This document shows positions 14,311 through 38,518 of a stretch of DNA of 64,000 bases, one piece after another. The notes under the pieces were generated by a model. That model saw nothing but the letters and a program-made list of their open reading frames with translations. It had not been told where the DNA came from and ran no database searches. Each line of letters begins with the position of its first letter. Within the stretch, counting starts at the first letter, position 1. Made by a program: the position numbers and the translations under genes. The DNA comes from Dacryopinax spathularia. Its lineage: Eukaryota > Basidiomycota > Dacrymycetes > Dacrymycetales > Dacrymycetaceae. The stretch spans positions 248,001 to 312,000 of the forward strand of contig JBBPFI010000017.1 of assembly GCA_037974965.1 (NCBI GenBank), given 5' to 3'.

Positions 14311-14561
14311 AGTGTCCTCGTTTGGGTAGATTACTTGGTTTGGTGCATACCGGCTGCAATAAGAGGCCTAAGAACGCGGCTTCTCACCTGTGGGCGGCCA
14401 TGGCGGTCACGAGCTTGCGTCTCCCTCGGAGCCGGCGAGTTGCGGTCTATCCCTGTATATATCTGAGATACGTCGCAGTGTTTTGATAGATCACCAGCGT
14501 ACGGTACCTTCGCGTGTTGACCCTGTTTCGGTCAGTTAGTGGATGAGGCGGTCCTCCTTTA

Positions 14562-14840
14562 GGTAAGATGCGCGTGGCGCTTCGGTAGGATGCGCTCGGG
14601 CGTTCGGTAGGATGCGCTCGGGCGTTCGGTAGGATGCGGTCGGGCGTTCGGTAAGATGCGCGTGGCGCTTCGGTAGGATGCGCTCGGGCGTTCGGTAGGA
14701 TGCGGTCGGGCGTTCGGTAGGATGCGCGCGGGCGTTCGGTAGGATGCGCGCGGGCGTTCGGTAGGATGCGCGCGGGCGTTCGGTAGGATGCGCTGGGGCG
14801 TTCGCTAGGATGTGGGTGTGGATTAGGCGGGATGCGTGAG
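14562..14840 (+). repeat. Tandem array, eleven 22-bp units with GGATGCG core plus degenerate units
   Basis: Units of the form GGTAGGATGCGCTCGGGCGT (22 bp with the following TC) repeat without gaps from 14562 to 14803. One or two decayed units follow to about 14840. Variants alternate in a higher-order pattern: an AAGATGCG unit starts a block of about three or four units, and the block recurs. The unit length is not a multiple of three and no open frame is kept, so the array is noncoding. A second array with the same core and spacing lies at 15443-15670, and a mirrored one on the other strand at 37920-38218. Confidence 0.92.
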
Positions 14841-15442
14841 ATGTGTTCTTGTCATCCGCTGGATCGCCGTATATAATTCGGGATTAAGTTGAATACCAAT
14901 GTGGAAGTAAAGATGTCTCGGATATTGCGTTGGGGCACGTCCTCAGGGGGCGGTGATGTTGAGTTCACAAAATGTTAGGAGGTGGTTCAGGGTGAATGGT
15001 GGTCCGTTGGCACGATCTTGTTGGTTCCGCGAAGTGCCTGAGTACTTCTCACTTCAGGAACAGGTGCTTTTGAAAGTAAGCGTTGTGTGTGTTCATACGT
15101 GGATAAAGACTTAGGTCGATCGAAATTCGGTCGGTGAACGACGATCCTGTGAAGAACAGGTCCTTTTGTCGCGAACTATACACGGTTTGGGCTACGTTTG
15201 GCCTCACAACCTCGTGAGCGCACCGGCTACCTCCGGTCTGGTGTACCAGAGACATCAGCGGCGCGGTTATGGTGACGCTGAACCATTTTGCGTTTACCTG
15301 GCCGCTCGAGCTTAACGAGAGGGTATAGAGTATGGCCCTCCATCGTGCCTGTTTCATATAAGGCGTTTGTCTAAGTTCTTGCACGGCATGCACGTTATTA
15401 TACTATGGGGACGGCATGATATGTATTTACGACGAGTTTGGG
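14841..15442. other. Spacer between the two left GGATGCG arrays
   Basis: A minus-strand open frame at 15049-15393 (114 residues, containing RWRAILYTLSLSSSG) could be a small gene or exon; no family is recognised. Nothing else is supported. Confidence 0.3.
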
Positions 15443-15670
15443 GGATGCATGCCTAGCGTCGGGATGCATGTGTCGATCGACATGATGATCCGATAGGTGA
15501 TCAGGATGTCTTCTTTCCGCCACGCGGATGCGTTTGTTGGTGCGGATGCGTTCGCTGTGAAGCTCGGATGCGACCTCCAGAAGACACGGATGTATCCGGT
15601 GTTACGGCGGGATGCGGCCGTTGGGCAACAGGATGCGCTTCCTGTTCGGCAGGATGTGCCTTCCGATGCG
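15443..15670 (+). repeat. Diverged GGATG(CG) array with 21-22 bp spacing
   Basis: GGATG cores begin near 15443, 15462, 15504, 15526, 15544, 15566, 15588, 15610, 15631 and 15652. Most intervals are 21 or 22 bp, and one is 42. Sequence between cores is not conserved, unlike the perfect array at 14562, so the spacing of the short core appears to be what is maintained. Confidence 0.75.
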
Positions 15671-16226
15671 TTGCTTACGACGATAGATTCGCCTTCCTCC
15701 CGGTGGTGGCAAAGGTACCTTCCACACCAGAAGCGTACAAGTGGGTCGAGTGCGGCAAGGAAGGAGAAGGGGCCAGTGAAATCCAGGCCACGACGTGTTT
15801 TGGGCTGTTCACGGTGTTAATTGAAAGTGCTAAGAGTCGCGTTGGCTCCGACGTCTTCATCTTTCTTTTACGTGGTTCGCTGTAGAATGAAATGGACTAT
15901 GTGCGTGTTTGCTGAATGTTTTGGGCGGTATGTGCAGTATACAGTCCTGCACCCCGAAGGATGTTATTCTGCACAATGACCATACGCTTTGCTCGCCTTG
16001 TAATCATTGTATTGTATACCCGGACGACCTGGACATATCATTTCCGTATCGGTGACAGCTAGCTCTGTGCATATCACATAAATAACTCCTCCTTTTGGTG
16101 GTCCCGGTGCACGAGTTCCTTATTCCATACATGTCGTTCGCGATTCATCAGGTGCTCTCCCACAGCTAGTTCGTGCCAGCTAGTTTTTCTGCTTCAGCCT
16201 GGCAAAACACGGGTTGGTACGGGCAT
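15671..16226. other. Gap between left arrays and F-box gene
   Basis: A plus-strand frame continues from the array to 15885 (about 60 residues beyond it, containing AYKWVECGKEGEGASE) with no family resemblance. The remainder to 16226 is AT-richer and holds no recognised feature. It is the 3' side of the F-box gene. Confidence 0.35.
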
Positions 16227-17769
16227 TCATGACTGTTCTGTCTGAGCCCGGATGTCATCGAGTGCGAGCTCCATGCGCGCTTTTCTGATAATCTGGCAAC
16301 ACATTGCCCTGCTGTCGACCACGATTTTGAGGTCCGGCCAAGCACACCGCCAGATTCTCGCCAGCAAGTCAGGCTGCCCGTTTAGCCAAGAAGCCTCGAC
16401 AACGAGCGCATTGTTGCTCTTCGACAGGGTGAATGGTAGCTCCCAGGTCAGTCCGCTAACCCTGATTGACCGGAGACTGGGACAGAAATCTACAAGACGG
16501 CCGAGAGTCTCGATCGAGATTCCGTGCTCGAATCGGACAGCATGTTTGTCAGTCGTTGAGAGCTTCACAAAGGTATCAGGCCACAGTAGCTCCATGCGTT
16601 GCAGTGCCGTCATATTCCTGATGAGTTCCACGAGTCCGCGTCCTTGCAAGAACAGAGGTTCCATGCCGAAATGATGGATGCGTAGTTCCCGGAGTTGAGT
16701 GCATGTGCGTAGCGAGGCCGTTCCTTTACGAAAATCTAGTTCGTCCTCAGACTGAGTCGGGAAATGAGTATGAAGCGCGATTTTGAGTTGGATTAGAGCC
16801 GCGTGCTTCTTCCCGATGACCTCAGTAATCTCTTGGCACTCTTTCTGCAATAGCCGGCAGGTTAATGCGAGATCGAGCGTCTCCAACTGTACGTTCATCC
16901 GTTGCAGCAGAAGTATAGCCGGCCTGGATCGCACGTTGAGGACCAGGTGCTTCAAGGCTACCCACGGTCCCGTTGATCGAGGTCCGTCGAGGAACGTGTA
17001 CGCGTTCGGGGGGAGAATTTGCCCGCTGATGTCAAGTTGCTGGAGATTTGAATGGCCTTGTAGCGTTTCGAGGACCGTCTCGACACAGTATTCGAGGGCA
17101 ATAGAGATACGTGCGAGAACGAAACGAGTTCCAAATCGCGTGAAAGCCACCAAAGAGTTGTTGTCGAGCGTGGCGGTACCGGTGCGCATGAGTCCGAGAT
17201 AGACCACGTTGTTGCAATGCTCGTAGATGTGTGTGATGGCGATAGCGAACGTATGCATCCACGCGTCGCAGTCGTACGAGCTCTTCCTCTGATTCAGGGC
17301 AAGATATATGCGGGATACTGTGGGAGTCACCACCTTCGTAACCAGGAGAAGAGCAGATGGTTGTGACGCGTCTATCGCAATGCTCCGCAAATTCGGGAAG
17401 GGGTTGAGATCGAGAGCGTACGCCAACAAGGTGAGGTAATCGTGCAGACGACTCAGTTGCCTTGCATCGTGCGGGCTAAGCTCGATCTTCAGTATCCAAC
17501 TGCAGTACCACTTCACCCGCGCCAACGTCTACCTAGCTGTCAAATGACCGTTGATGTAGGTACGACGGCGCGCATACCGTTTGGTCACCGAGCGGCCTAA
17601 CGAGTAGAAGCTTGGCCAGGGAGAGCAACATCTTCGAATCAACGTCCTTCCATAGCACTTGCATGGCCCGATTCACGGTCTTGGAGAGCATCGCCAGCTT
17701 CACCAAATCCTTGCGGTCCAGGTAGGAGAAGATATGGTCGGCGATGTCCTCATGCGTGAGTATGGACAT
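16227..17769 (-). CDS. F-box protein with leucine-rich C-terminal region, two exons
   Basis: This is a probable substrate receptor of an SCF ubiquitin ligase. Exon 1 is 17578-17769 and exon 2 is 16227-17528. The 49-nt intron (17529-17577) joins them in phase 0; nearer acceptors would create a stop, which fixes the site. The product is about 497 residues. The F-box is at the very N-terminus (HEDIADHIFSYLDRKDLVKL, then ML and an RAMQVLW segment). The rest is made of irregular leucine-rich strands such as LQQLDISGQI, LETLDLALTC and LRELRIHHFG, typical of fungal F-box/LRR expansions. The substrate is unknown. Such families are large and fast-evolving in Agaricomycetes. Confidence 0.82.
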
Positions 17770-17992
17770 CCTGATGGTGGGATGATGGTTACCACTCGTG
17801 AAGGAACGACGCGAGGGACGCAGTGACGCGAGTCGGCGCGCCTCTTAAATCCGGCTCACGTCTTACGGCCACCGCGCGGAACATCTGGCGGCCTAAATTT
17901 GGGGTAATTTAAGGACATTAATTGTAACGAGTCGTGTAAACTAATGTACAACAAAACTATACGGGATACGGACACGTCAGCGTCGTGCCGAG

Positions 17993-19168
17993 TTAGTAGT
18001 CGGCGGAAAGAATGCCTTGGAGAAGGACGTCGACATCTTGACGCAGACTCTGGACGAGTTGGCGGAGGCAGGCGAGGGTCGTACTGGGTTGCTTTGAGGC
18101 ATTAGCAAGTTCTACCGCGTGGGCTATGAGGCGATCTTCAGCATCGACCCGGATCCTTTTGTCGGCGAGCAAGGTACGAACAAGGCGACGAGCGAAGTCA
18201 GGGTGCTGACAAAGGCGTTCACTCCATTGGTCGAGAGTAATTGCATTACCCTGTTGCGGTGCGTTCCTGGGATACCTAGCGGGTTGCTCAGCTGCAGCCG
18301 CAGGCTGATCTTCTATGTCGGGACTGTTTCGACGTGTAGACTTTATTTCGGTAAGTGGTTCGTCATGATTTACGCGATGCGGGACACGGGCTTACCGTAG
18401 GAGTAGTCGTACCGTGGGCACTTTGCGTCGATTTAGGGGGGCCCTGTCCGGTTAAATCGATTTCGTCCGTATCGGTGGAAGGGGCACCGGCGTCGGGGTC
18501 GGATCTAGCTGCCAGCGAACGCGGAGAGACGGTGATCCTCGAAGCGTGTTGTTCCCTAATCAGCAAAGGAGCGGTGCATACATGCTGCGGACGAAATTAG
18601 TACCGGGTAAGTTCGCGTGGAAGACGCATACATTCTGGTTTTCATTGCTGATCTCTTCGTCTCCGTGGTCGCGGTCAGACTGGACATCGTTCAGTGTGGA
18701 TGAAGTACGGTTGTCCTCATCGGAACGGGGACTCTCGACTTCCTCAGACAGACGAGTCGATCGGCATCGGACGGTAGAAGTTTTCGAGCGCAAGTTGTAG
18801 GGCTCGCGCCCTGTAGCAGCATGACGGTTACGGCTGTTACTTCTCATAGTGGAGGACGTCGGCCCACTGGGATCGCTCCCATTTTTGGCAGCTCGTTTGG
18901 CTTCCCGGGCCTTGACCGCGCGAAGCTTGTAGACCTCCGGAAAGTGGATGTCGTCTTGGTCGGCGAAGCCCATCCTGTCGGTTGGAGAAAGAAGCAGATA
19001 ACGAGGATTGGACTGATCATAGCGCGTCCTCCCGGATTTCCTGTCCTCCACCTCCTGCTGATGGAGTTCGTCGAGGAACTCGTTTTCGGTTCCTTGAACG
19101 ACAGCTCTCTGATATGCAGCCTCGAGGTTCTCCCACTCCTCGTCAGTTTGCTTGGTACTTTTAGGCAT
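17993..19168 (-). CDS. Hypothetical charged protein, three exons, 357 residues
   Basis: No family recognised. Exons 18632-19168, 18396-18584 and 17993-18340 are all phase 0, with introns of 47 and 55 nt; the first has a textbook ACTAAT branch point. The product begins MPKSTKQTDEEWENLEAAY. It is rich in Arg, Lys, Glu and Ser through the middle (KAREAKRAAKNG, EEVESPRSDEDN) and ends in a helical region with DQWSERLCQHPDF and LRQLVQSLRQDVDVLLQG. An alternative in-frame frame opens upstream to 19300. It looks like a disordered protein with a C-terminal coiled or helical module. It is on the same strand as the F-box gene upstream of 17.8 kb. Confidence 0.55.
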
Positions 19169-19953
19169 GAGTAGGCAGTCGTTGAATATCACGGCGAGGT
19201 GATCGTTCGGTCGTAACGGCTCATAGGGGAGCAAAGTCCGACCCCCAAGAGTCGGCGGAGCTGAAAGCGAACAGAAGCAAAGCGCAGAGGACCCTAACAT
19301 GGTGTCTTGAAGGTATCATGATGTACCTACCTGCCAAGTGAGGTATACGCTCGTCGTTTGGAAAGCAAATTGCTCTCCGAGGGCGTTGTTATGACTGGAT
19401 TGTCTTCTACGTCATACGTAACTGTCTCGTTAGTTCGTGCGCAACCAGAGTAAGCGCAGGGGGGGTTGCGAGCGCCGGGGAGCGTTGTGGGAGTTGGCAC
19501 CCTCCGGGGGCGCTCGACTGGTCACCGGTACGCGGTAGCCGCTCCTATCTCTCGGGTATGAATAGCCCTACGAAAGAATCTGTCACCAGGTCCAGCATTT
19601 ATTTCGAAGGATGTGGACGTTCTGCGACAGTCTGTAATGCTCCCGGCCAATGTTGCCATCGAGTTGAGGCTTTAGGATGGAAAGGTGTGGCGCGATGGAA
19701 AGGAACGGAAAGGACAGGAAAGAGCTTCGCTGGGAGTGGCGTTCAGGGGTGTGAGGGTGAGCGTCGCAGGCCCTTTCCTTTCGTACTCTGTTGGCGTCGA
19801 GCGCTTGAATGTTGAGTTAGGAAGTGGGGAAGACGTTGACGCCTTAGGGAAGATGACACAACTTATGGGAAAGCGCCTAGGTGCGAGAAACGTACTTAAG
19901 TCAACACATCATGCCCGACCAAGGCTAGGTGCGGTGAAAGGCTCAGTGGTAAG
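19169..19953. other. Intergenic region between divergent genes
   Basis: This is the shared upstream region of the minus-strand hypothetical gene and the plus-strand dsRBD gene. It contains a purine-rich run with repeated GGAAAGG-like words at about 19677-19730. No gene recognised. Confidence 0.4.
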
Positions 19954-20868
19954 ATGACGCACCCTGCTTCTCTTTCGATCCCAACGGAGCTGGAGGTTGC
20001 CATATTCGATGCAGGTCAAACCGATATATTTGTTCCTTGTCTGGCCTGCAGCGTTACGCAGTCGTCGCTCGCGGATATTGGACGCTGGTCGCTGGCGTTG
20101 ACGACTATCGATGTACTGCGCGCCCGTCACCGGGAAGTCCGTTTGGATGAACTTATCGTGAGTATCTCCGTCTGGGTGATAACCCTGTCGTTGTGCTAAA
20201 GGTGTCCAGGCGATGGAAGCGTCGTGCGTCGTGGACGGCACGTACGCTAGGTGGTCAACTCTATTGCCCTTCAGTCGCTGTTATGTGTCCCCCGAAGGCA
20301 GCGAGCATGTGGCTCAGGCGACTTTGATGGCATATTTCGGCGCTCTTGCTCTTTTGAAGGACACCTCCACGGCACGCAGTCTCGTTTCTCAATGGGCGGG
20401 TTTTACTACATCTCCGTCCACACGTCCTGAGTTCAACGAGTGGAATGGGGGGGGTGGAGGGGTGATTGACGCGGAGGAGGTTATTCAGCCCGCTTTTCCT
20501 CATGTAGATTTTCGCCACGATCGGGACCGGTCTTCTTCCCCGCCTCCCTTGACCGTGGATGAAATAGAGGCGGCGCCGTTGCTCTACTTTAAGCAGTTCG
20601 CTGCTCAAAAGGGTCTATCCGTGTCGGAGGATGCGTCTGCTTGCGGTCCTGATCATCTCCCCCTGTGGACGTGTCGCGTATATGGTACGTAGGCGTACTC
20701 CGGTCACTCCGTCTGCTCATATGCATAATAGTGAATAGCGGCTCAGAACCCTGCGGGGAGGGCGCAGGTCGTAACAAGAAGGAAGGTTTTCGGCTTGCTG
20801 CACTGGACGCGCTGCATAAACTTGGATGGGTGAGTGATATCGTGGGTGGAGATGTGTTACCGGATTGA
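19954..20868 (+). CDS. Double-stranded RNA-binding domain protein, three exons, 271 residues
   Basis: This is a predicted dsRNA binder with no attached catalytic domain, so its partner is unknown. Exons 19954-20157, 20210-20684 and 20732-20868 join in frame through introns of 52 and 47 nt. The C-terminal 75 residues have the dsRBD layout: helix 1 LLYFKQFAAQKGL, strand PLWTCRVYV, a turn GEGAGRNKKEG that supplies the conserved basic helix-2 start, and helix 2 FRLAALDALHKLGW. The N-terminal part is unassigned, with a glycine run and acidic patch before the domain. Small dsRBD-only proteins occur in basidiomycetes. Whether this one touches RNA silencing is only a guess. Confidence 0.7.
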
Positions 20869-21132
20869 CGAGATTTAATAGATTGCCCCCAAGAACCCCA
20901 GCGAGCATGAGGATGAGTACATGTGATTGCTGAGGAATGAGCGTTCGGCCACATTGGTCCTCTTCGGGGAAACCATCTTGTTCCTAATATGACGATCAAG
21001 GTGGGTGAGCGGGTGGGCGTCGCGGGAGCACGTATTATCATGCATTACTGTTATCTTATCATAGTGCGAATACAGTTGGGAAGTTCCGGCACTCTTTTCG
21101 TGCGTGGCACGGTCTAGGTTACGGTCGTCGTA
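20869..21132. other. Short gap between convergent genes
   Basis: 3' sides of the plus-strand dsRBD gene and of the minus-strand zinc-knuckle-like gene. No feature seen. Confidence 0.4.
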
Positions 21133-24100
21133 CTAAGTTACCAAATGTTTTGCACTTGATCGCCTCGTTCGCGTCTTCTTCGCCTTGCCTTTGCAGAATT
21201 TGGTCTTCGCTGTGTCGGCGGGCACACCTCTCTTGCGAGCCCGTGCGTTCTCCGTCCTCCGAGCATTGTCCCTTGCACTTTTGCTCAGGGGAAGCGGTAG
21301 GTCCAGGTCCAGGATCTGCATCTTCAATTGCCACATCTCGTCGGTGCTGAGACAGTGCAGTTTGGGCAACTCTCCGGACTCGAAGCGTATGATGTCGCTG
21401 TTTTCCTCCTCCTCGGTTTCTTGAGCTTCAGGCGAGGGAATGCGATGAGCTGGCTGGGGTGCCTCGACAAGATCATAGACCCAGTACGGAACTTTAGTGC
21501 CTGTATTAGCGACCAGGGTAATCCACACCGCTGGACCAATACAACGTACTGTTTTGTAGTTCGGGCGTCTGCATGAAGCAAGGGGCTCCGGATGCGGTAC
21601 ACGCGGAGCATTTGACTCCCCTTCTTCGTTGATCGCACAACTCGAATGGTTTGCTACCATCCTGAAGGATCTGTTCCGCCTCATTTCCGTAAGCTAAGCG
21701 CTTCTGTTGACAATTGGAACAGCGGTATGCGCCGTGGCGCCACTGTTGGGTTTGAGCGTTGCCTTATGTAGTCAATTGTAAACCGTACCACGGTAGGGAA
21801 CTGACCGTCCTTGCGAATCTCAACAACACCGTACTTTCTGATTAATGGAGCGAGGCTGGAGTCTTTCCATTCGATTGTCTTCGGTATGACGCGCTTGCCA
21901 ATCGTGTATCGGTGAGCCGGGGTCCAACTGGGTAGTTTGCGCTCCGATCTAATGCGATCTAGCGACAAGATGGTTCGTTGGCGAAATTGACCACGGGCGT
22001 AGTATGGATGTTCTCTTCGATAGGGGTCCAGCTCCGCTCGCACGAAGTAGTTCTTCAGGAATTGCCCTTTTTGGACGGATGGGGCTTCGTGATTGGGTTC
22101 TTGGGGCGGCAAGGGATCGCTCTCGCTCTCGGAAGTTGCCTGCTCGTCATGCTCATACCGGCTTTCCTTGCGCCTTGTTTGTTCTCGTGACTGGCGACGT
22201 CGGCGTTTTGAACTCTTTGCGCTGCGTCTCTGTCGCTTCCGTTTCCGCTGGGTAACTTCTCCTCTGTTGTCGAATCCCAGGGGGTAATGTCTTCAATGGA
22301 CGAGTCAGCGGAAGTTTCGTTACCGTCCATATCTCGGATCGGTTGAGCGATTTGGTCGCTGGTGCCGTTGGAGGTCCGTTGCCGACTGGTGTCAGAGCAC
22401 GCAGGAAGTGTGTTGGGTAAGATGCGCTGTGAGTCGGGTAGGCTTTCTTGCGAGGGAGGTCTAACAACCTCTTCTTGCTGAACCTGGTAGTATTCATCCT
22501 CATCGCGTGGTGCGCTCCGAGGAGTGTGATTTCCACGGGCTCGGACGCCTCGAGGGGCAGCAATCGTAGGATTGGACCATTGCCCGTCACCAGACACAGC
22601 CCCTGTCATCGGCCCTAGTCCTTTTCCAGTCTCTTCCATACCATTCTCTCCCAGGTTCAGTATCGGGGGTGATGGGGTGCGCGGTTCGGCGAATGTGGCC
22701 ACATCGGACATGGACATGGTCGGAGAGAATGTGAAGCCGTCATCTTGCAGGTCCGAACTATCGTTCGTCTCAGACGAAAGAGCCCTATCGTCGATCAGTC
22801 TAAAGGACCACTGGACGTCGTGGTGCAGCGGAGACGGGTGCTTGGGTGAAAGGTTTATCGTCGGTTCTTCCTTGGCCGCGGCAGATTGACTGCCAGGAGG
22901 ATCCCCAGTTTTGGCTTCCCCCCTGCCGGGCTCATGGGGCGCAGATGGACATGGTTGCGAGACGGTTATGAAGTTATTCCTCCTGACCCAGGGAGCACCA
23001 GTACTGTCACCTTCTTGTCGTTCCCTCTCTTGCACGGCTAGCCTCGTTCGAGCGATGTAACGACGAGCATCCGTGATCATATCGAGGTCAGAATAGCAGT
23101 AGAGTTCGGTGTATGCTTGACGAATATACGTAGGGATATTGACTACGTCTGGGAGCTTGAACTCAAGCGACGTGTATCCTTCTCGGACGAGGCAGATAGC
23201 TTTGTTGATCACTTGCATTGCTTTCGCGGTGAAGGCGGAGGGAATGTCCTCTAGAACCTGCTCCTCGTAGGTCGTGAAGAGCATGCTCTATATACGACTC
23301 AGCCTTGATATCCTGAAGGAGTAATGTAGCTTTACCAATTGGATACAAGCCAACTTGATGCGCTCGTGCTCTTCAGTATCGGCTTCTGTGATGTTTTCAG
23401 CCAGCCTGCGTTCCCATTGCCCGAGATCGAAGTGTTGTCGTCCCAATCGCTGTAAAAAAGTCACCTGACCGCACCGTCTCAGTACCTTTTTGGGTAAATT
23501 TTTGATGGGAAGTAAGTCAATGGGAATGGGGAGGAGCTCGTGTCTGCGTGGCTCTATCAGCTGCGTCGATTGTTCAAGGATCTTCGCGAGGCCCTGGCAC
23601 ATGATCGGTGGAACGGCCGCGCCCGCCATGTACACCTGTATGAGGTAGTGGAGCTGAAGTGGTAATCAGCCGCGTGCAAGTGCCCGTTAAACGAAACTCG
23701 CCCAGCGGTCTAGTGTATGTGTGACGTAAATGCTCGCACTTATCACGTTAAAACGCGTTTTCCATCGAGAGCCGGGTGGAATGGTGTTTAGTAGATCATC
23801 GCCGTAAGTCGCGTCCAGAAAGTGACACACGTCCCTTCGCAGCTGATCACCGCTCCAGTCCCACCACCTCGTCGCACGTGTCTCGGCTTTGGCTTCCGTG
23901 CTCCGAGGGGCGCTTGTCCAGGCGAAGGGCGTGAATCCCAATGCGAATCGTCTCACGGCGTGTGGCAGTGTTCTCTCCAGGAGAATGGTGGAAGCCAACG
24001 GGACGTCGTGCATACAGTAGACGTTTCGCGCATGGACCGCAAGCTCCAGGTACAGTAACAGCAGTTCACCTGGATCGTCGCCGATGTCTACATCATTCTT

Positions 24101-27479: not shown

Positions 27480-27562
27480 TGCCTTCTAAAGACAGGATTC
27501 GGATTGTATATACGGTATGCTTGCAATACAGTCCGACTCGCCGCGCTTCATCTCGTCTGCAT

Positions 27563-29200
27563 TTAATCGTCGTCCGCCAATCTCTTGCGTGTCTCCGTAG
27601 CGCTGTCGAGTTTCCAGAGGGCCCACTTGTCGCTGTGTTCGTTGAAGTAATAGATCCTGAGTCGTACACTTGATCTTTGTACACCGTCATCGTTCACCGT
27701 CCACTCTCCCGACGCTACCTCCTTCATCGTGACCCCGACCAAACGACAATGATCACAGGGCTGTATACAAACCTTGATCCGAACTACGTGGGCGGCTCCT
27801 TGGGCGTTACTGGCCGCCTTTTCGCCCATGATCTTTTTCATGCGGGCGATAAGTATGAAGGGCGAGCAGGTATCGATGCCCGCCCTGAGCGGGGACAGCA
27901 TGTCTTGCTCAGCTGTCTTGGTCTTCAACGTTACGAGCTTCACGGACACTCGATTCAGGAACAGACGACCCTCCGCATCGTGCAACCGACTCATTATCCT
28001 GCGGGCTGTCATTGAAAGCATGTGTCTCGGTCGTAAATGCTCACCATTGCCACGTATTAGTTTCTGCACATGTCCCAATCCTGCGACTGCTCTCCAGGTC
28101 CCCACCTAATCCGGCATCGCTCCATTCTACCAGCGAAGCATAGGCTGCACTGGGCAAAACGGCACGCATTGCAGCCCGTCGATATCGTTGGATGGCGTCC
28201 TTCTCGGCGAATTCCTGGTCCCAATCGCCTGGCGTGTTGCATCCAACAAGGGACAGAAGGACCTGTTGCGCTGACAAAGGACCGCCGGGCTCGTTGTCGA
28301 GAAGCGGGATCGTAAATACAAATGGACGGTAATGCACGTGCACGACGCGGGAGACAATCCACATGCAGGTGAACACGAAGAGATGGGCCTCATCTTCGTT
28401 TCCCGGGGCGATGATGTCGGCGAGGACGTGAGCTGACGGTGTCGTCAAAGTAGAACGAGAGGAGAAGACACAGGACACACCCAGAGCGGCGCATGCATCG
28501 GGTATCACGAAGTTGAACCCATCCAACGTGAAGGAGACCGTCTCCAGCACCTCCGAGCTGCCAGGCGATAGCTCGATTCCATCGGTGCATTCTTCCTTTT
28601 TGACGAGATGATACGGTGACAACCTTTGTTCCCTACGGTGCCGTTAGATGTGAACTGCAAGGTAAGTGGGAGCATGTATTCGTACCTCAACATGGCTTCA
28701 AGCGCCGGCACCACGAATATACGGTATGCGCTGCTGGCCGCCGGCGATGGTTTCTTGACATCCGTCATCATGTCAACTTCGAGCTGAGCCGCGATGTCCT
28801 AATGGGAAGATGAGCGTCATGCCCATCCTAGGTAGTATAACGACATACAGCTGGGCGGGCCAAGCGGAGGTAGCAATGCACGCGCTCGTCGAACGTTGCA
28901 GCGGTACGGACGGTCTGCATCGTCGATTCGAGCGGGGTGCCCTGCAAAGAGTTAGAGGATATCTCAATGCCCGGGCACTATCAAGCGTACCTGCACTTGT
29001 TCCCCGCCCAATAGAGTTTCGGTTTGCGGCTCAGAGATCATCGTGTCTGTCCTATCGACCAACAGGGTATGCTTAGCACAAGAAATGCAACGGTCACGCC
29101 GGATCGTCTCCTGCTGCCTTCGACCTCGACAAGGCTCCTTCAAGGGTCCTGGTGGTAGCGCCACTGCCACTGGCGGAATACCACCCCTTTGTCCGACCAC
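27563..29200 (-). CDS. Hypothetical protein, five resolved exons, 5' end open
   Basis: Not recognised. Exons 28991-29200, 28849-28941, 28637-28798, 28045-28595 and 27563-27998 join in frame at introns of 41-50 nt, giving about 480 residues. Position 29200 is not an ATG. Frames at 29470-29800 (containing RICTEHGRFCRHKYS, and LQHIEAELEIADAV) are probably upstream exons, so the gene likely begins near 29.8 kb. Two Cys pairs are visible, RDRCISCAKH near the resolved start and QPCDHCRL near the end, compatible with metal binding. The central part has KDAIQRYRRAAMRAVL, a helical stretch. It follows the PIF1-family gene on the same strand. Confidence 0.5.
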
Positions 29201-29931
29201 GTTTGCCCCAGCCCCAGGCCGCCGTGTGTGTGGTCACCTCTTTCCTCAAAAGGGATCCCGCCGTTGAACACTATCAAGAAGACATCAGACGCCTGCGTGC
29301 TACCACACTTTTCGATAAGCTTCCTTCTGGGACGCAGAGAAAGGTAAGCTGCGCACGGAAGGGTACCGGACCTGTCCTAGGGAGCGAGTCGGCCACTTCC
29401 TTCTCCTGCCACGTCGTTTGTCTTCAGTATGTATATGGCACGCTGGGCTGTATAACCACGAGAACCTTCACGTGAGTAAAGGATAAGCCGATGTTGCTTT
29501 AACCACTTGGTGAACCTCGTGTTCTCCATGGGCGGGACGGGTCCTTCCGAGATGATGATGCTCTTCGGTTCGCGGTCTGGGGTGCATGCCAGCGTTTGTC
29601 TCCCCATAGGCATATTCGAATATTTGTGGCGGCAGAAGCGGCCATGCTCCGTGCAAATCCGCTTGTAGATGTTCTTCGCGAGATGTAAGGGAAGAGAACG
29701 ACGTGGCCGAACCCTACCTGTTCACGTCCAAGGTGACAGCATCCGCAATTTCAAGCTCCGCTTCGATATGCTGTAATGACCTCCAGAGTTTTGGGAGCAG
29801 GGGCCGCGGTGCCGCGGGGAACAATTTCGTATGTACATTGACACACGTCGAATTGCCGTCGAAGGGCAAATATGTACAAAATATCATGTGAATTTCAGTC
29901 CGGACTACCCCGACCGACCCGCCAGATCACA
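29201..29931 (-). other. Probable upstream exons of the minus-strand gene ending at 27563
   Basis: Plausible exon pieces lie at about 29480-29655 and 29720-29790 on the minus strand, one with His and Cys residues in RICTEHGRFCRHK. The exact splice chain could not be fixed. The PIF1-family stop at 29932 bounds the region. Confidence 0.35.
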
Positions 29932-32012
29932 TCATACACTCAAACGAACGACTGAACTCTTCAACGGCGGGGTGCGGTCCGAGCTACGTTCATGCATCTC
30001 AGATGGGTGTTTCCGGGAAATGGAATGGTTTGCGAAAGGGCTTACAAGACTTGGAACAAACGCCACGACCTGCAAACCTTCGGCCCAAATTGCGCGCGCC
30101 ATCGTGGTATACGCCTGGCCTGAGTTTGCACGGGTTGGCATCATCAGACAGCCTGTCTAACGCGGTTGATGTCTTTGCTCACCCTTTGCAAACGCCCTGG
30201 TAAAGTCGGCCTTTATCCTGTCTAGTGACATCCCTTGCGACCTGTTGGTGGTCATGGCATAGGCAGGAATAAGCGGTATCTACTCGCATCGTCAGGCAGC
30301 GCTCTCAGAGATCGATGAACTTACCTGATATCGTTCTGCCCAACCGTCCACGCCGTCTTGCACGCGAAAGCACGATGGTTCGATCAGTAACCGCAAATGC
30401 TCCTTGCCTTCTCCGACTACAAATTCCACCACAGGAAGATTTATATCCTCGTTGTCCAGTCGAACTCCGCGCAACATGGTGTCTCCCCATACCTCCAAGG
30501 GGTCCTGTTCGATAATCCTTTCGCCCTGCTCGTCCCACATTCCTCTCGTGCAGAAGGCAAGAACTTTGCCACGACTGCCATTGACGAGACCGGTGCCATC
30601 GTATCGATTTTGGATCAACAGGACGTCCGTGCCAACCTTCAGGCGGAGTTGCTCAAGGGCAGAAGTGGAGGCCAAATTTGGCCCGGTGGTATCCACGTCG
30701 TCTATGGCATCGTAAACGAAGTCTGGTCCGTAGAGGGTATTCAAGCGTTTCTCGTTTGCAACGAGCACCTCGGCCTTTGTCGGATATCTGACGTTCTTTT
30801 GAGATAGCGCGGTCAAAGTAACGTGGCATTACGAACATTTCGCTCGGGGCTAACCCATCCGGGTACACCACAGTCCTCTGTAAAGCCGCGAGCCTTCTCA
30901 TAGATGCTTCTCCTACGGTTCCATTTCGGACGTTGTTGAGAAGGGCGATGAGTTCTACGTGGGCACCGAGTGAGCATGCGCTCGCCGCGTTAAGGGCGAT
31001 ACTTACCCGGGTCGTGCTGTCGATGTATCGTTTTCAAGCAAATGTGTCTTTGTATCTTCATCCTCCATGCTTCAGTCTGAAAGGCGAAGACGACTCGACC
31101 TTGGGGGTCAGGTACGGGCGGGAGCTGATGAAAGTCGCCGATTGCAACAATCTATGAGATAGGTCAAGGGGACGGATATACATTTGGGCACCGAAGGTAC
31201 GCACCTGTATGTCCCCAAAGGGCGCGGTCCCTCCTCGGACAGCCTTCCAGATCTCGGCAACGGTCTGAAAGTATTGCCCAGGGAGCGTTGCAACTATGGG
31301 ACAGTTATCGGCGCGAGCACATGAGAAGGTGGAGCGGCCGAACGCACCTTCGTCGATTACGATGACCTGTGTCTCCTGGACAATCATCATTCGATCGTGA
31401 TTCTCGCGAATACGCATGACCATGCGCCAGGGCTCCGCAAGTCCGAGTCCTATTCCGGCAAAGGAATGTAGAGTTTGTCCGCCTATATTGCGCGCGGCCA
31501 CCCCTGTCGACGCGGTCACCGCGACGGCGTATTCGTTGTCTGCGTACTTCTTTCGCAGTTCGCGGACAATCGCACGCGCTAACACGCTCTTTCCCGTCCC
31601 TAGCTCGGTGAGGTAGCCGAGATAGAACTAAGTCCACGCGGCGCTCACCAGCACAACCAGTTATGAATACGCTTGTTCCCTCTAAAACCACGTCCAGCAC
31701 GCTTTTCTGTTCCGGTGAAAGGTCGTGGTTCTCCCCGAGTACTCTGGCACCCTGCCTGCACATTTCCTCCGTGAACGGACCTGGCCAGTTTAGCGGTTCG
31801 ACGCGTTCTGGCTTTGCAGGTTGTGTTGCTTTTGGGGGCAGGAACGTGCTGCCCGCGTCCCCTAACCATTCAGGAGACGTCGCGGGCAGAGGCGGAGCGG
31901 CTTCTTTCAATGATCGCGCCCTTCGCTCTTGATCGGTCCAGTTGTGAGATCGTACGGCTTCGATGATAGCGTGGTTATTGTCCGTCATCGCACGACTCGG
32001 CGGTGGTGCCAT
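29932..32012 (-). CDS. PIF1-family DNA helicase, eight exons, 575 residues
   Basis: Predicted 5'-3' SF1B helicase acting on replication or recombination intermediates. Exons 31649-32012, 31348-31599, 31205-31293, 31007-31151, 30833-30954, 30325-30795, 30183-30279 and 29932-30119 stay in frame over seven GT-AG introns of 37-63 nt. Splicing restores the motifs: LSPEQKSVLDVVLEG, then Walker A GCAGTGKS built across intron 1, VTASTGVAARNIGGQTLHSF, VIVIDE, motif III IVAIGDFHQLPPVPD, KTIHRQHD, TDVLLIQNRYDG and LVNGSRGKV. Motif VI is NRSQGMSL where host PIF1 normally has HKSQG-TL. The chain ends in the usual QAY-ARAIWAEGLQVVAF. The gene is spliced and intact, unlike the unspliced Helitron helicase, so it is not a Helitron fragment. 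It may be a lineage-specific paralogue. The 37-nt intron 5 is the weakest junction. Confidence 0.88.
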
Positions 32013-32199
32013 GGCGATACCTTGGACCGTCCCAATGTCGCCCTCGACCAAGGCCGTTTTGCTTCCGGTACACGCACACTCAGATCGCTGCCAGGGTTGA
32101 CTTACCGCTCGTCATCCATCTCGTTATCTTCTCTTCATCGTTTCCCTACCTCGTTATCTTGCGGCTTACCCTCCCTTTCCGCAATTCCCCGTGGTCAGA

Positions 32200-33245
32200 A
32201 TGGCTCCAAGTATGTCAAATATAAACGTCGTGCAGCGCATTCTGAGACTGCTGCAGGCGCGCAGGAACAAATCGCCGTCGTTCGCTCTCGAGACCTAGCC
32301 GTCACCGTCGAACATCATAACACCAAGTCCGGGCGTTTCACATTCTTCGTTGGATCGGAAGGGAGGTTTACGGCCCCTCCTCAGTGGCCAGAGATGCTTT
32401 GCTTTATACGAGATGTGGCTGTATTCTACGTGAAACAGATCGGCAGCATTGAGAGGAGATGCTGGATTTTGACCAAAGCGCCTGATGGAACGTACCGCTG
32501 CTTCCAAGGAGCAAACGGCGCCCGGCTTCCGTCTTCTGAACCCCCTCTTTATCTCTGTTCGATCGCGACACCGACGTTCCTACGGCACTCTTCACTCAAC
32601 AGGAAGAGCAGGTACTACGGAATATCCACTGTGTGTATATTCGATATCTTGCACTGTAGCACGCGTGCTGATCTTCGACGTAGAGAGAGGATACGCTGGA
32701 GACCGCGTTCATGCCTAAGGACGAGGACGTGAGTGGGGACACGTGTCCCAGAGAGTATGCTCATATCTGTCCAGGCACCACCTGTAGTCATAGAATACGT
32801 CCAACCGTCCACGCTGGCGCCCACACCCGTGACAATGGAATGGCGAGCAAGCGTTACTGAACCTTTTCAAATTATGAGAAATTACGGCTCCCATGCACCC
32901 GCATACCCTCCTGAATTCGTCAACTATGTGCCGCCGTATTCGGTATATATCTATCGCCAGTCTGCATCGGCCGAGTATTATTGGCTACGTCTTCCTTCTC
33001 AGGAATGGGTTCGAGCATACGATGGCATGCCCTTGCCTCCCGGAGAGAACGTGGGCGATGATCGGCATAAGAATCGTCCTATCTGCCTGTCGCTCGCCAA
33101 AGGGGGTCCCAAATGGATATACGTCCGTTCATTCAAGATGAGTGCCCGGCAAAAGCAGAAACGGGCTTCTAAACAATCTATTTCGCCATATACTCGACAA
33201 TCCCTACGAGCGCAGCGGCTAGGTGATTCGTCTAGGCCGTCCTAG
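32200..33245 (+). CDS. Hypothetical protein, spliced, one junction unresolved
   Basis: Not recognised. Exon 1 is tiny (32200-32209, MAPS) and joins exon 2 at 32257 in frame over a 47-nt intron. Exon 2 has TVEHHNTKSGRFTFFVG and WILTKAPDGTYRCF. A segment near 32555-32608 (RDTDVPTALFTQQEEQ) joins in frame to REDTLETAFMPKDED (ends 32728). That in turn joins to the last exon 32775-33245, which has YSVYIYRQSASAEYYWLRL and a basic tail RQKQKRASKQS. The junction between exon 2 and the 32555 segment was not found. The product is beta-rich with a lysine-rich C-terminus. The gene is divergent from the PIF1-family gene, with under 200 bp between starts. Confidence 0.5.
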
Positions 33246-34302
33246 GGTCGCGGTGCGTTGTTACCTCGCTTCCGATTACACCCATTGGAAGCGAGTTTTC
33301 CTCTTCTTTCCCGGTAGGAATCACTTTAACTTCGCGTGCCGACCGTCGTGCTGACCTTAGCGTCTTCAGGTCCTCTCTGGCTTGCCCTCCCGCGGCGGCA
33401 ACCATCTCCTCAATCCAGACCAGATATCGTTGGTACACGGACGCCCACGCTTTGTTGTTTCGTTTCGGCATCTACGCATATCAGACCGCGTTCTGAAGGG
33501 GGCGAACGTTACTCACGTCCGCTGCAAACCTTTTCCAGTTGATCCTTTTCATTGGGCGGGCCTCTGCATCGAATGCCAAGTAACGGACTATCCACACGAG
33601 TTCTTCTCTTGTCACTCGGTTGCCTGTCAATCCCCGACACGTCGTTGTCTCTACCTGCGGCTGGATCAAGAAAGGTTCGGCGCGGCGAAGTGTAGATAAC
33701 GCACATCAAACACATTGACCGCATCGTTCAGCAAATCGACTTCCCCTGTACCATCATCCGCTAGATGGCGTGCCTCCTTATATCCACAGTCAGCGGACGC
33801 CTCTCTTTCCGGGGCGGACACCAACCACCAGGATTGCATCGTTGCCTGTCCCCGAGCCTGCGTCCCCGGATCAGCGCTATGTCCATTCACCGTTCATCCA
33901 ATCGATGCTTACAAAGTTCTTGCATGATTTTGGCAACATCTTCTTCCGTCCACGGGTAATCTAGCGACCACATATCCATCCCGTCTAGCACCGGAAGACG
34001 TCGTCAGTGACCTGTGACGCGAGCAAGTCAGTCAACGCACCCCTGCCTTCCGCCGGCTTTGCCTTATTGTCGGTTTCAAGCGTATCCACCCACCTCAACG
34101 CCTCAACGAGAGCTGCACCCGCGTTCTGGATGTTCTCGGGTGGGCATCCTACGACGACGCTGATGGTCAGTTGGATGCAAAATGCTCGAACGGTCGCACT
34201 GAATGACATACCGTGGGTGCGACTATCCCTCTCCGACGAATCGAGCCAAGCCACAACACCCCATAGGGACATGCGAACGCTTTCTAAGGACTCTAGCGCC
34301 AT
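33232..34302 (-). CDS. Hypothetical spliced gene, partly resolved
   Basis: Not recognised. The first exon begins at the ATG 34302 (MALESLESVRMSLWGVVAWL) and is helical. The final exon 33232-33471 joins in phase 0 over a 45-nt intron (33472-33516) to an exon ending WKRFAAD that contains REELVWIVRYLAFDAEARP. The middle exons between about 33700 and 34000 include SLDYPWTEEDVAKIMQEL, but the joins are uncertain. It overlaps the 3' end of the plus-strand gene by a few bases at 33232-33245. Confidence 0.4.
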
Positions 34303-34477
34303 CTGTTACTCCGAATACTTTAGGTACGTATCTCTCCGCTTTATACGCGACCCTCGGAAACGCGTCCTATCGCGCGTCCCACAACACCGGTTTTCGTGTC
34401 CTCTCACTTTCCGATCGGTGTGTCTCCATCAGTACCCGTGACGCCGCCTTCTGATTCCTTTGTTTCGTAGGTCCTAT

Positions 34478-35620
34478 ATGAAGCCGACTGCAGTACGCCC
34501 AAACAGCGCTCTGGCAAGTCCTCGTCATCACATCCGTCGATCATCACTTCCGTCGAAAATGCGCTGCGCGATCTCAGCCGCGTTACGGAACGCTGCGGTA
34601 TTCGATAATATTCTTTCGAACTGCGATCTATCAGTCCTATGCATATGGCTAAAGACATGTAAATCTACGCGTGCAGCCACACAAGAACATCTCGCCCGTC
34701 GCTGGAACATCAACGAGGCCCTTTCCCACTTCGTACCCGACCCGCATAGCTTCCGCGCTATCATGGCCAAGACCGGTACCGTGCTGACAGGCGCCTTCGT
34801 CCTTGCCTTCCTTCTCCAAGAGAACCTGGTCGATCATCCCGTAGAAATATGCACCACTTGGCTGCACGGTAAGGAAGTACTCGATGTCTTCGTCGACCGA
34901 GGTTACCAAGTTATATCCGCCCATCGCGCCCATCCGTGGACCGCTGAGATGGACGTCGCCACCATCGTCGAATACGGATACCCTTCCCGTATTGCGGGTG
35001 GTAAGTCGATCGATGTCATGGCCCCTTGCATAGTACATTAATCCGGATTAGCGTTCAATCTCTCCCGGGACAACAAGCTAGTCCGCCTTCTTGTGTATTC
35101 GAGATGTCACGAACCGTCCTTGGCTACTTTCGAAGCCGGAACTAGTCCGTTGGATTTCGCTACTGGCCTACGCACTATCCGTGTCTGACCCTTGTATTCA
35201 GCATGCCTGATGAATTTCGTTGCTTGGGATCGGCTTTACTGTCTGTACCCCGCCGCAACCCTGCTCCGGCGCTCCACTCTCAACTTTTCAAGAACCCCGT
35301 TATCGTCCCACCACGCGCGCAATATCCGCTATATCGGTTCTCAAGGGTTTACGGTGCACAGCAACAAACGTCTCTCCGACAGTGCGCTATATGCACCAGG
35401 GGAGAGGCACACGTCAGACGGGGCCAGTTGGATTCTAATGCTGGATACAAAGGACGTGTATCGAAGGGCGCCGAGAAACGAGGCATTACAGTGGAATCAT
35501 ACTTGGCAGATCAACTCCGATCATACCGGTTTGTGCAACATCCCCATGCGATGGATCCCTTACTTCCATACAGAGCCATCGTTCCTACGATCAGAGCGTT
35601 CTGTAAATAGTGTTCCTTAG
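34478..35620 (+). CDS. Fungal F-box/nucleotidyltransferase-like family protein, copy 1
   Basis: Member of a multi-copy basidiomycete family that I know as an F-box-like helix bundle followed by a degenerate nucleotidyltransferase-like fold. Exons 34478-35000, 35052-35144 and 35202-35620 join in frame. Recognisable parts are VFDNILSNCDLSVLCIWL (F-box-like), then FRAIMAKTGTVLTGAF and, after splicing, a CLMNFVAWDRLYCLYPAATL block, which is the family signature. The acidic pair expected after the glycine-serine loop is absent (LVDHPVEIC instead), so enzymatic activity is doubtful. The C-terminal part after about 35450 may be spliced further. A diverged tandem copy lies at 36293-37364. Confidence 0.55.
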
Positions 35621-36292
35621 TGAAGATCCAATCCTCGTCGCTGTAACGCCTATGACCAAGCGAAGTCCAAATCTCATGCACGGATCTTCTTGGGAGGAAA
35701 CAGCGCAGTGGGCTGCACGTTCGGCTTTCTTCTATCTGTCTGTCGGCTTCGTCCCGGTAACGAGTGACGAAGCGACGATCGGTCGTGCTGCTTTTCTCTT
35801 CCTTCTATCGGAATTTTACGTGGGGGGAACCTTACCGCAATACACGCCGCGCATGTATCGCGTTGCCATGCGATCAACGGATCTGCCTCCCTGGCTCCGC
35901 ATCCTCACGTGTACGTTACATCGTCCCTTGCCGGTCTCTCGGGACGGATTAAGACATGTTGGTAATGGGAAAGGAACGCGATCAACGGTTTTCGGCGCTA
36001 CAAGTGCTTTCTCACGCCCGTCACGGTGTGCATGCCACGTCGTGCAATGTATGCGACACAGCCTGTATCATCCTTCTCTGTCGAACACTATCTCGCAAGT
36101 CTTCGGCACTGTTCAAATCTCCAGCAGAGCTCTCGTTTCCTGCTGACGGACGCTGGATGTGAATCCTCTATCGACTCCGGGCTGAGAAGGTCGCGGAATC
36201 GGGCCTTACCTGGCTTTAAAGGCCGTCTCATCGGCCGTGAACAGACCCATCAGGCACCCTACCTTTCTCATCCGCGCCGGCTGCCTAACAAT
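35621..36292. other. Stretch between the two tandem family members
   Basis: Plus-strand frames at 35656-36146 carry a hydrophobic segment (WAARSAFFYLSVGFVPV) and may be the 3' exons of copy 1 or remains of a third copy. Not resolved. Confidence 0.3.
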
Positions 36293-37364
36293 ATGGGCCT
36301 CACCTCCCGATCTGTTCTGTTCCTTCCAGCGAACCTCCCGATCTTCTTCGCTTTCTGCCGGACTCCACTTCTTTTGGTCCTCGCGTCCACTTGCCGCGGC
36401 CTGGACCACCTCGTGAATGAATACTTCCGTACCGCATTCTCTCTGCCCGACCTTCTCCGGCACTATGGGTTGAACCCATTCACTTTTCTACCTCTGATGC
36501 GCCAACTGGGAATTGTCATCTCCGGCAACACTGCTCTGTACTTCCTAGCGCGTCGGTCTCTTCCTCTCGACCCTTTGGTTCTGTACGTGCCACGGCCTTT
36601 CGCCGCAGACGCTGTACGGTACATGATGAAAGAAGGTCGGTACTCAGCCACCGTTCCAGATACGCTCACTCACAGCTTCCTCGCAGAGTACCGTATGTGC
36701 GACACAACGGCTCACTGGGTTGGGAGGAGAACCCGACGGCGGCCTGCGCTGCAGGCGCAGGGTCGTGCTCGAGAAATCATTAGCGGTGCGCGTGACAGTC
36801 GACTCTCGCGTCCAGATTGATCAGACCAATGCAAGTTACAACGTACCTCCTTCCTCACACCAAGCAATACGTATACCTCGCCGTGCCTCGGTACTCGATC
36901 AGTAGTGTGATTCTCACATTGCCCACAAGTGCTATCGCCTCCTCGTGTGATGTTCCAGGCTCATCCTTTTCATAACAGCTGCGGAGATGAATTTCATCTC
37001 CTGGAACCGATTGTTCTGCATGTATCCAAGAGCAACACTTTGCGCGAATGTTTCGCTCGTACTCCAGCACCTCGAGGCGGACCCACCCTATCAAGATACC
37101 GAGACGTTGCTTCCAGAGGCCCGACTAATCGAATCGGTTGCTGACAATCGCACATGCTTCGAAGAGGGACCGCATTGGATGGGGGATGCCTCCACCTGCT
37201 CGATAGAGCTGGCGACCGGTAAGCATGGCCCTCCCACGTGGTGGGACGCCCACGAGGACGGATGGTATCTCCACGTCGACGAGGATGGCTACCCAAACCA
37301 TCACTTCTACCGCGTCTGTAACATGCACCATCACTCGCCCAGTACGCTCGATAATACCATTTGA
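36293..37364 (+). CDS. Fungal F-box/nucleotidyltransferase-like family protein, copy 2
   Basis: A tandem relative of the gene at 34478. The first exon has the F-box-like LPIFFAFCRTPLLLVLAST and the loop LGIVISGNTALYFLARR, followed by PLDPLVLYV where the family normally has a DLDLY acidic motif; again the acidic pair is lost. Its last exon (about 36979-37364) has MNFISWNRLFCMYPRATL, matching MNFVAWDRLYCLYPAATL in copy 1. That exon continues to a histidine- and aspartate-rich tail with HEDGWYLHVDEDGYPNHHF. The middle junctions (about 36710-36980) are not fully fixed. The start is the in-frame ATG at 36293. Confidence 0.5.
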
Positions 37365-37919
37365 CGTTCATATGTCGGCCAAACCTTTTCTTCCTAATTC
37401 ATTCGACGCGTATTCACCGCACCATTCGATACAACATAGTGTGCCCCTAACCTCCTTCCCAAAAGAAATATCAAGCCACGTCTTTCATCTTGTCCTCTTC
37501 TTCAAGCCTAGCTTGCAATGTCCGATACCGTATTTTCTCGGACATGGGGGGTTATCCTCTCCGTTAGATGTCGGCCCCACGACTTAGCTCCTGCTTTCTT
37601 AGCACTCGGCGCTGGCGCCCCTTCAAGCCCGCTACTCTTCTGCACCGTGCTTGAGAATTTGAGCCGCCCTTTATATACCACTTTCCGTGCGCTCCCAGGA
37701 CCAAGCTGCGAATTGTACTGTCCTGTCCGCGGTTTGACTTCCCACTATCCCGCTCGATGGACAGACCCTCCGCAAGTACAGAAAACCTCAAGCAACGTGC
37801 ACTACAGGCATACAAATATTCCTCGATGTCCTCCGGCCTACTACGAGAGATGGCATCGACCTTCAACCCTAACTACAACACACCTTACCTCTTACAGCGC
37901 AGCTCGCCCCTGGGCCAAC
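37365..37919. other. Gap between copy 2 and the right array
   Basis: No supported gene. Only short overlapping frames are seen on both strands. Confidence 0.35.
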
Positions 37920-38218
37920 CGCATCCGCCCGATGACCCCGCCCATCCCGCCGTATCTCACATCGCATCATACATGCGTATTGACCACATCCTCTATTGTG
38001 CTCAGCGCATCCTGTCTTCTCCGCATCGCATCCTGCCTTATCTGCATCGCATCCTGCCTTATCCGCATCGCATCCTGCCTTATCCGCATCGCATCCTGGC
38101 TTATCCACTGCGCATCCTGTCTTCTCCGCAGCGCATCCTGTTCTGTCGCAGGCGCATCCTGCATATCAGACAATGTACGATAGCCAGTGGATGTCCTACG
38201 TACTTGCGAGGCGCATCC
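37920..38218 (-). repeat. GGATGCG array on the minus strand, 21-bp period, twelve cores
   Basis: On the plus strand the core reads CGCATCC. Cores or one-base variants start at 37920, 37941, 37963, 37985, 38006, 38027, 38048, 38069, 38090, 38111, 38132 and 38153. Eight of these (38006 to 38153) are spaced exactly 21 bp. An isolated core lies at 38212. The central units are near identical (GGATGCGATGCGGATAAGGC plus one base). Read on the minus strand the units would encode heptads QDAMRIR, so a coding role is possible. The core and spacing match the two plus-strand arrays at 14562 and 15443, in opposite orientation. Confidence 0.92.
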
Positions 38219-38511: not shown

Positions 38512-38518
38512 CGGCCAC

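Follow-up and report, generated by a model that had tools for sequence, protein, structure and literature searches.

A giant multi-gene element of Helitron kind with phased GGATG(CG) arrays in Dacryopinax spathularia

Copies, termini and genes of the element

The analysed window is a stretch of 64,000 nucleotides from the basidiomycete Dacryopinax spathularia (C17:248001-312000 in a genome of 29.2 Mb and 24 contigs), and from position 218 to 41806 it contains an element with a RepHel gene, phased GGATG(CG) arrays and a set of further genes (Table 1). That this is a real, recently mobile element of Helitron kind is well supported; the designation giant Helitron is based on RepHel, matching ends, A/T flanks, one very recent copy and a collinear gene set. 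Mobility is the well-supported part, and replication as an episome and a function of the arrays are what we infer from the sequence. A blastn comparison between the array loci revealed that window positions 217-41806 recur on contig C4, where a second full-length copy (G000:C4:979905-1021352) lies inverted relative to the C17 copy and in unrelated flanks, with 183 substitutions and nine indels over 41,445 aligned bases (99.56% identity). Searches with the ends gave six genomic 5' ends (C17, C4, C14, C6 and two on C5, i.e., C5a at 1821231 and C5b at 1411279) and five 3' ends, at all loci except C5b. From end to end the elements measure 41,589 (C17), 41,448 (C4), 42,309 (C6), 35,093 (C14) and 28,676 bp (C5a); the three relatives of 28.7, 35.1 and 42.3 kb share both ends, and the sixth locus shares the 5' end. 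C5b yielded no 3' end, and its frame at the g6 match continues without a stop for 21,558 codons, suggestive of a long stretch of N in the assembly. Comparisons cover the first 28.6 kb and the last 2.9 kb of C14, the ends and the array of C6, and the 5' end of C5b. The initial annotation had offered, as one reading, a large undescribed mobile or self-replicating element of about 23.5 kb bracketed by arrays. Its substance holds, given two copies at 99.56% identity in unrelated flanks and three relatives sharing both ends, but its boundaries do not: the arrays are internal to the larger element, and the proposed interval omits the RepHel gene.

The g2 product combines HUH Rep motifs, read as HCHMLIW and YITDYISK, with a PIF1-type helicase, the combination by which Helitrons are recognised. 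The 5' terminus folds into a GAA-loop hairpin in all three elements folded, and its sequence CCTGGCCAAC returns in inverted form close to the 3' end as GTTGGCCAGG. Asymmetric terminal inverted repeats of this kind are present in all five both-ended elements, as is typical of the Helitron2-like type. An A precedes ATCCC in six of six copies, a T follows CCTA in five of five, and the flanks of the copies with known ends hold no target-site duplication longer than A/T. This agrees with Helitron insertion between A and T without target duplication, where the constant A and T can be assigned to the target only from an empty site. The canonical Helitron1 3' end, CTRR preceded at 10-12 bases by a hairpin, is not present: the end reads CCTA(T), and a hairpin of the 3' repeat lies further inward than the Helitron1 type in C17 and is absent in C5a (one of two folded). 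Nor do the flanks show the Helitron2-like insertion at TTTT / T or C as given in the excerpt of PMC5148889; the left flanks end in A. FoHeli1/2 of Fusarium oxysporum, described in that excerpt, share the GAA-loop 5' hairpin and, towards the 3' end, the asymmetric terminal inverted repeat, but are about 5-6 kb long, insert between TNAT and T and have hairpins at both ends; the C17 element resembles these Helitron2-like elements more than canonical CTRR Helitrons (PMC5148889, excerpt). Among the open reading frames (ORFs) and gene models scanned, some short ORFs lying outside the scan, there was no match to a Starship tyrosine-recombinase captain or to the PolB and DDE integrase of Maverick/Polinton elements.

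RepHel is 72% identical to its C14 counterpart (residues 1-1000, where the C14 match carries one in-frame stop) and 63% identical to that of C6. Comparison of residues 560-1020 with 5.8 billion proteins gave 342 matches, and the nearest among those listed come from Calocera viscosa (66%) and then C. cornea (51%), a genus placed near or within the Dacrymycetes. The genome itself contains at least 45 Helitron_like_N loci.

Table 1. Features of the element, in window coordinates
Feature	Position	Strand	Description
Whole element, giant Helitron	218..41806	+	41,589 bp including shared first A and last T; blastn and end alignments
5' terminus	218..262	+	(A)TCCCTGGCCAACGAAGTTGAGCCAGG, hairpin with GAA loop; six genomic 5' ends
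g1	525..870	+	small protein, approximate model; 48% identity with C14 across 95 residues
g2 RepHel	1348..7380	+	Pfam Helitron_like_N, DUF6570, PIF1; HxH and YITDY motifs
g3 Rad9/PCNA-like clamp	7623..9167	-	Pfam Rad9 41.3 bits versus cut-off 25, spliced C17 model
g4	9986..10689	+	conserved in C14 and C5a
g5	11226..12326	-	15 of 17 genomic loci adjoin a RepHel
g6	13473..14310	+	58% identical in both C14 and C5a
Array L1	14562..14840	+	11 GGATG units, period 22 bp
Array L2	15443..15670	+	10 GGATG units at 18-22 bp, mutually dissimilar spacers
g7	16230..17528	-	unmatched in C14 and C5a
g8	18563..19315	-	unmatched in C14 and C5a
g9	19954..20868	+	C-terminal dsRBD-like domain; dsrm 23.3 bits versus cut-off 23 in C5a ortholog
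g10b	21133..22330	-	basic N-terminus, CxxC cluster; no Pfam match
g10a	22855..24897	-	half of divergent pair with g11
g11	25297..27479	+	other half of divergent pair; GC-skew switch in gap before g11
g12	27563..28920	-	CAE and PCxxC invariant in three of three
g13 PIF1-family helicase, separate from RepHel	29932..31988	-	approximate model
g14	32200..33245	+	conserved in C5a
g15	33079..33715	-	small protein, conserved in C5a; model overlaps g14 end
g16 and g17	34559..37364	+	similar stretches; conserved in C5a, automatic models fused there
Array R	37920..38218	-	GGATG units, period mostly 21 bp
g18 F-box protein	39269..40871	-	Pfam F-box-like 26.0 versus 24.3; no match in C5a
3' terminus	41776..41806	+	GTTGGCCAGG...CCTA(T); five genomic 3' ends

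The gene models are approximate, and their conservation was assessed by tblastn against C14 (first 28.6 kb) and C5a; 16 of them are conserved and collinear in one or both. All 12 genes expected in the covered part of C14 are found there (g1-g6, g9, g10b, g10a, g11, g12 and g13, the last cut by the end of the covered sequence). C5a has 14 (g3-g6 and g9-g17, g10 counted as two), g1 being absent and RepHel a fragment, and eight genes of C6 (g2, g5, g6, g9, g10b, g10a, g11 and g12) follow in the same order and strand by coordinates; no Rad9 match was found in C6. The C17 proteins are 42/40% (g12), 58/58% (g6) and 36/36% (g3) identical to their C14/C5a relatives, and the relatives of g3 match Rad9 at a lax E of 0.5, so that three of three members do. 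Between 14307 and 19900, tblastn against C14 and C5a gave no conserved coding match, and g7 and g8 are probable lineage-specific cargo. For g18 the corresponding part of C14 lies outside the covered sequence. The second helicase, g13, matches Pfam PIF1 with 59.7 bits (ORF 31061-31627) and Pif1_2B with 33.5 bits (ORF 30295-30828), and g10b is a candidate DNA-binding protein.

A search of 5.8 billion proteins that needs shared exact words gave no homologues outside this genome for g3 at E <= 0.001 (3,777 candidates) or for g11 at E <= 10 (7,995 candidates). An exon of g11 had no confirmed relative among viral contigs, and the PDB profile of g11 gave a single match at chance level. The CAE and PCxxC motifs of g12 (window 28045-28632 and 27563-27998) resemble a deaminase motif, which no database match confirms; there is no Pfam match to such a family, the PDB profile gave only weak matches to cytochrome c551, and a deaminase is not claimed. 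The idea that g6 is an OB-fold protein was dropped, with no Pfam match and no meaningful PDB match. C5a (G000:C5:1821231-1849906) has lost nearly all of RepHel and kept both ends and most other genes, and is a candidate non-autonomous giant Helitron.

Phased arrays and their conservation

The three phased arrays reported in the initial annotation were borne out far above shuffle expectation. GGATGCG occurs 34 times in the window versus 13.4 expected, the highest count in 100 shuffles being 23. It is clustered at 14588-14836 (+), 15526-15637 (+) and 37920-38218 (-), and the remainder are nine dispersed singles, as the annotation had already remarked that only single copies occur elsewhere. GGATG recurs in steps of 22 bp in L1, 18-22 bp in L2 and 21 bp in R, each with one double step, and the longest chain at 20-23 bp spacing has nine members versus a maximum of two in 200 dinucleotide shuffles. 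In the whole genome, 45 of 46 matches to a strict triple pattern fall within four loci, all copies of one element family. A relaxed pattern gave 75 matches, 68 of them in the family (a fifth locus on C6 included) and seven dispersed singles outside it. Along the C17 element the arrays lie at about 35-37% (left) and 91% (right) of its length; being internal, they were rejected as element termini, and the suggestion that they are subterminal transposase sites does not apply to the C17 element.

Left plus arrays stand between g6 and g9 in C17, C4, C14 and C5a, i.e., in four of the five both-ended elements, where C17 and C4 are near-identical. The mirror layout described initially is conserved in part: right minus arrays near the 3' end are found in C17, C4 and C14 (976086-976279, which leaves about 260 bp to the end of the element). 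C14 has an additional minus array (952168-952545), a recent inverted duplicate (1,154 bp, 99.65%). The one array found in C6, on the minus strand and on the upstream side of the g12 match, is built of three 209-bp repeats, and each repeat contains four GGATG spaced at 22 bp; C5a carries four GGATGCG units within the g10a/g11 divergent gap. In 75 distinct units pooled from six arrays (C6 and C14 R left out, GGATG fixed by the search), the CG after GGATG holds 0.96 and 1.08 bits, the two preceding bases 0.60 and 0.62, the T two bases past CG 0.78, and the remaining positions 0.07-0.51.

The spacers of L2 and C14 R are mutually dissimilar by eye, and most of their steps are about two helical turns. 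Because GGATG and its phase persist while the spacers diverge, we read the arrays as putative sites at which a protein of the element binds; a conserved core in direct repeats about two helical turns apart is also what iteron- or partition-type sites look like. The alternative first offered, unrelated minisatellites, fits poorly with the recurrence of the g6-g9 array and the kept phase of GGATG. Dispersed GGATG was considered as a polarity signal and rejected: outside the arrays it is mildly enriched in C17, C5a and the covered C14, and equally in four host flanks.

GC skew, and a possible composite origin and life cycle

All three elements compared begin at the 5' end with a GC skew of about +0.3, and by the 3' end it has dropped to values between -0.1 and -0.35. 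Its correlation with position in 1-kb bins is r = -0.92 in C17, -0.90 in C5a and -0.77 in the first 28.6 kb of C14, and r is -0.05 to -0.36 in four host flanks. At the 3' side the skew is -0.17 to -0.35 in the last 2.9 kb of C14 and -0.09 and -0.22 in the last twentieth of C17 and C5a, respectively. The cumulative skew has its maximum within the g10a/g11 gap in three of three elements, which through common ancestry are not fully independent. Between the recent copies C17 and C4, 113 of the 146 transitions are at CpG-type sites, which suggests cytosine methylation of the resident copies; as strand bias is lacking too, the skew asymmetry probably arose outside the resident state. In human N-domains, as described in the excerpt of PMC3320577, a linear fall of skew between two upward jumps, located at initiation zones, is read as a fork-polarity gradient; those are megabase domains of chromosomes, unlike the mobile element with sharp ends described here. 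The simplest equivalent of such a gradient in a sharp-ended element would be a circle replicating bidirectionally from its joined ends, whereas pure rolling-circle synthesis would be expected to yield one skew sign throughout.

The giant element looks like a composite, in which a Helitron core (RepHel and g5) is joined to a replication-type module (Rad9-like, g10b, g10a and g11), because the g10a/g11 pair recurs at eight loci outside the family, each separated by over 160 kb from its closest Helitron_like_N match. There are 17 g5 loci, 15 of them with a RepHel on the opposite strand no more than 10 kb away; of the other two, one is C5a, where RepHel has been deleted, and one is situated 3.8 kb from the start of a contig. 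All 13 g11 loci have a divergent g10a within 12 kb. Two loci of g10a without g11 stand 14-22 kb from a RepHel (C8:1233 kb and C1:2155 kb). The order g11, g10a, g10b, Rad9-like is kept at C4:1401-1417 kb, and a Rad9 match within 8 kb of g10a was found on C4 (35.8 bits), C15 (24.8 bits) and C2 (18.2 bits, under the cut-off), where the nearest Helitron_like_N is more than 380 kb, more than 200 kb and 54 kb away, respectively.

Four of the eight outside loci form two mirrored pairs with equal or near-equal scores (C10/C2 and C1/C8). At C1:2464670-2529102 and C8:319927-378461, about 57-64 kb separate the g10a/g11 matches from the Rad9 matches; the two layouts are mirrored and score almost alike, and they may represent a mobile element that is larger still and lacks RepHel. 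At C10:1139224-1153718 and C2:1810554-1825048, also mirrored, g10a/g11 lies between inverted Rad9-like matches about 14.4 kb apart; these flanks score about 17 bits, under the cut-off, and the layout resembles long inverted repeats. The loci without RepHel hint at another undescribed class of large fungal element.

We consider it fairly likely that the element is a giant multi-gene Helitron of composite origin with an episomal circle that replicates from its joined ends, the arrays being protein sites. RepHel would nick and peel off the element to give a circle with joined ends, and replication of this circle would start at or near the junction and run in both directions, assisted by the element's Rad9-like clamp and its second PIF1 helicase. 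Such replication would leave the end-to-end GC-skew gradient. The arrays, on one face of the helix, could be bound by an element-encoded DNA-binding protein, with g10b as the best guess, and could serve maintenance or segregation of the circle, or activation of element genes. More tentatively, and with doubts prevailing, we hypothesize that a Helitron lineage and a replicon-like module together made a self-replicating episome that circularises, replicates from its joined ends with its own clamp and helicase, is kept by the GGATGCG arrays and reinserts as a Helitron, while the module (Rad9-like, g10b, g10a and g11) would also form separate elements with another mode of moving. The skew footprint makes free replication of the element testable by standard replication mapping.

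A number of observations weigh against the episomal circle and the composite origin. Minus-strand genes right of the switch leave the gradient (+0.051 at third positions at 28-35 kb, and a coding skew of -0.007 at 35-41.8 kb), and AT skew is mostly negative without a reversal along the element. Substitutions between C17 and C4 have no strand bias (C/T 17, 27 and 28 versus A/G 19, 27 and 28). Among the arrays, C14 R contains GGATG but never GGATGCG, C5a has no right array, and no left array was found in C6 by pattern. The arrays slip like minisatellites as well, by unit-length indels: three of the nine indels between C17 and C4 are whole array units (88, 21 and 21 bp). The Rad9 assignment is affected by nine of 16 genomic matches lying under the cut-off, the C14 and C5a members included (19.6 and 20.4 bits exon by exon), and by the PDB profile of g3, whose four best matches are RAD9A, weak at E 0.02-0.09. 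As for the modules, g5 was matched at no more than 15 of the 45 Helitron_like_N loci, g10a occurs without a g11 match at 18 more loci, and the g10a/g11 loci without RepHel may have arisen through loss or decay of RepHel, as in C5a.

Transcription or codon selection could have shaped the skew gradient instead of replication, and the switch does lie between two divergent genes in all three elements. Third positions at 21-28 kb differ in sign with the gene strand (plus -0.048, minus +0.082), and the departure of minus-strand genes right of the switch also speaks for this view. At 7-14 kb, however, third positions are G-rich on the same strand in both plus (+0.349) and minus genes (+0.373), and the skew of non-coding DNA drops as well, from +0.22/+0.28 to -0.18; we regard this explanation as unlikely. 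Unlikely too is a role of the arrays as enhancers or silencers of element genes, with no part in replication or segregation. The units in the g10a/g11 gap of C5a would suit it, as would the left arrays of C14 and C5a, which stop about 0.8 kb short of the g9 model on its upstream side; yet L2 and g9 of C17 are separated by 4.3 kb with g7 and g8, and the right array of C14 is so close to the 3' end that there is hardly space for a gene on that side.

A giant Helitron that passively carries captured genes, with the arrays as neutral minisatellites, is in our view improbable. Helitrons are known for sequence capture (PMC6431247, excerpt), the array copy number differs between C17 and C4, and g7 and g8 resemble lineage-specific cargo. 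Constraint between these recent copies appears weak, with a dN/dS of about 0.49 (33 synonymous and 53 amino-acid changes) and one stop difference, in the approximate g13 model. Against passive carriage, C14 and C5a have the genes in collinear order, with 36-72% protein identity for the four measured, so that the set is old and kept, and in L2 of C17 and the right array of C14 GGATG persists at 18-22 bp although the spacers are dissimilar. The two copies at 99.56% identity might also come from segmental duplication of a chromosomal block, but the six 5' and five 3' ends agree, are of the Helitron type and lie in unrelated flanks; this origin is extremely improbable and largely refuted by the common ends of diverged relatives.

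Relation to known elements

The usual description of Helitrons is of smaller elements that capture fragments of host genes. The excerpt of PMC6431247 gives 6-7 to 14 kb for fungal Helitrons and up to 39 kb for maize Helitrons; the latter are alike in size, but their cargo consists of fragments from as many as nine host genes, with no conserved gene set of their own. The C17 element is far larger than the fungal Helitrons (up to about 14 kb) in the portions of the open-licence literature consulted. HELPO elements of Pleurotus ostreatus, in the excerpt of PMC4289320, likewise encode a RepHel that combines Helitron-like and PIF1 domains, show A/T insertion and have extra genes downstream of RepHel, and the HELPO1 elements measure 1.5-13.7 kb and hold between one and four captured genes; the elements described here differ by their 28.7-42.3 kb and a gene set conserved between diverged copies. 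Starships are also large multi-gene fungal elements, but they have a tyrosine-recombinase captain, unmatched here, where the ends are Helitron-type (PMC13066641, excerpt). The term giant Helitron is absent from the open-licence PMC papers searched, and those retrieved for Helitrons together with a clamp, Rad9 or accessory genes describe no such element in their titles and abstract openings. If the proposed reading is true, Helitrons of 29-42 kb with an old collinear gene set and a clamp-like protein would stand beside plasmids and DNA viruses.

The same excerpt on P. ostreatus (PMC4289320) reports a 37.2 kb region of strain PC15 with 576-bp inverted repeats, 14 predicted genes and a HELPO copy, which is duplicated in PC15 and absent from PC9. 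It is similar in size to the C17 element. Beyond the 3' end of the C17 element, a host reading frame (41921-42385) lies about 115 bp away; part of it is 71% identical to 46175-46963, 4 kb away, and the two could be a tandem gene pair.

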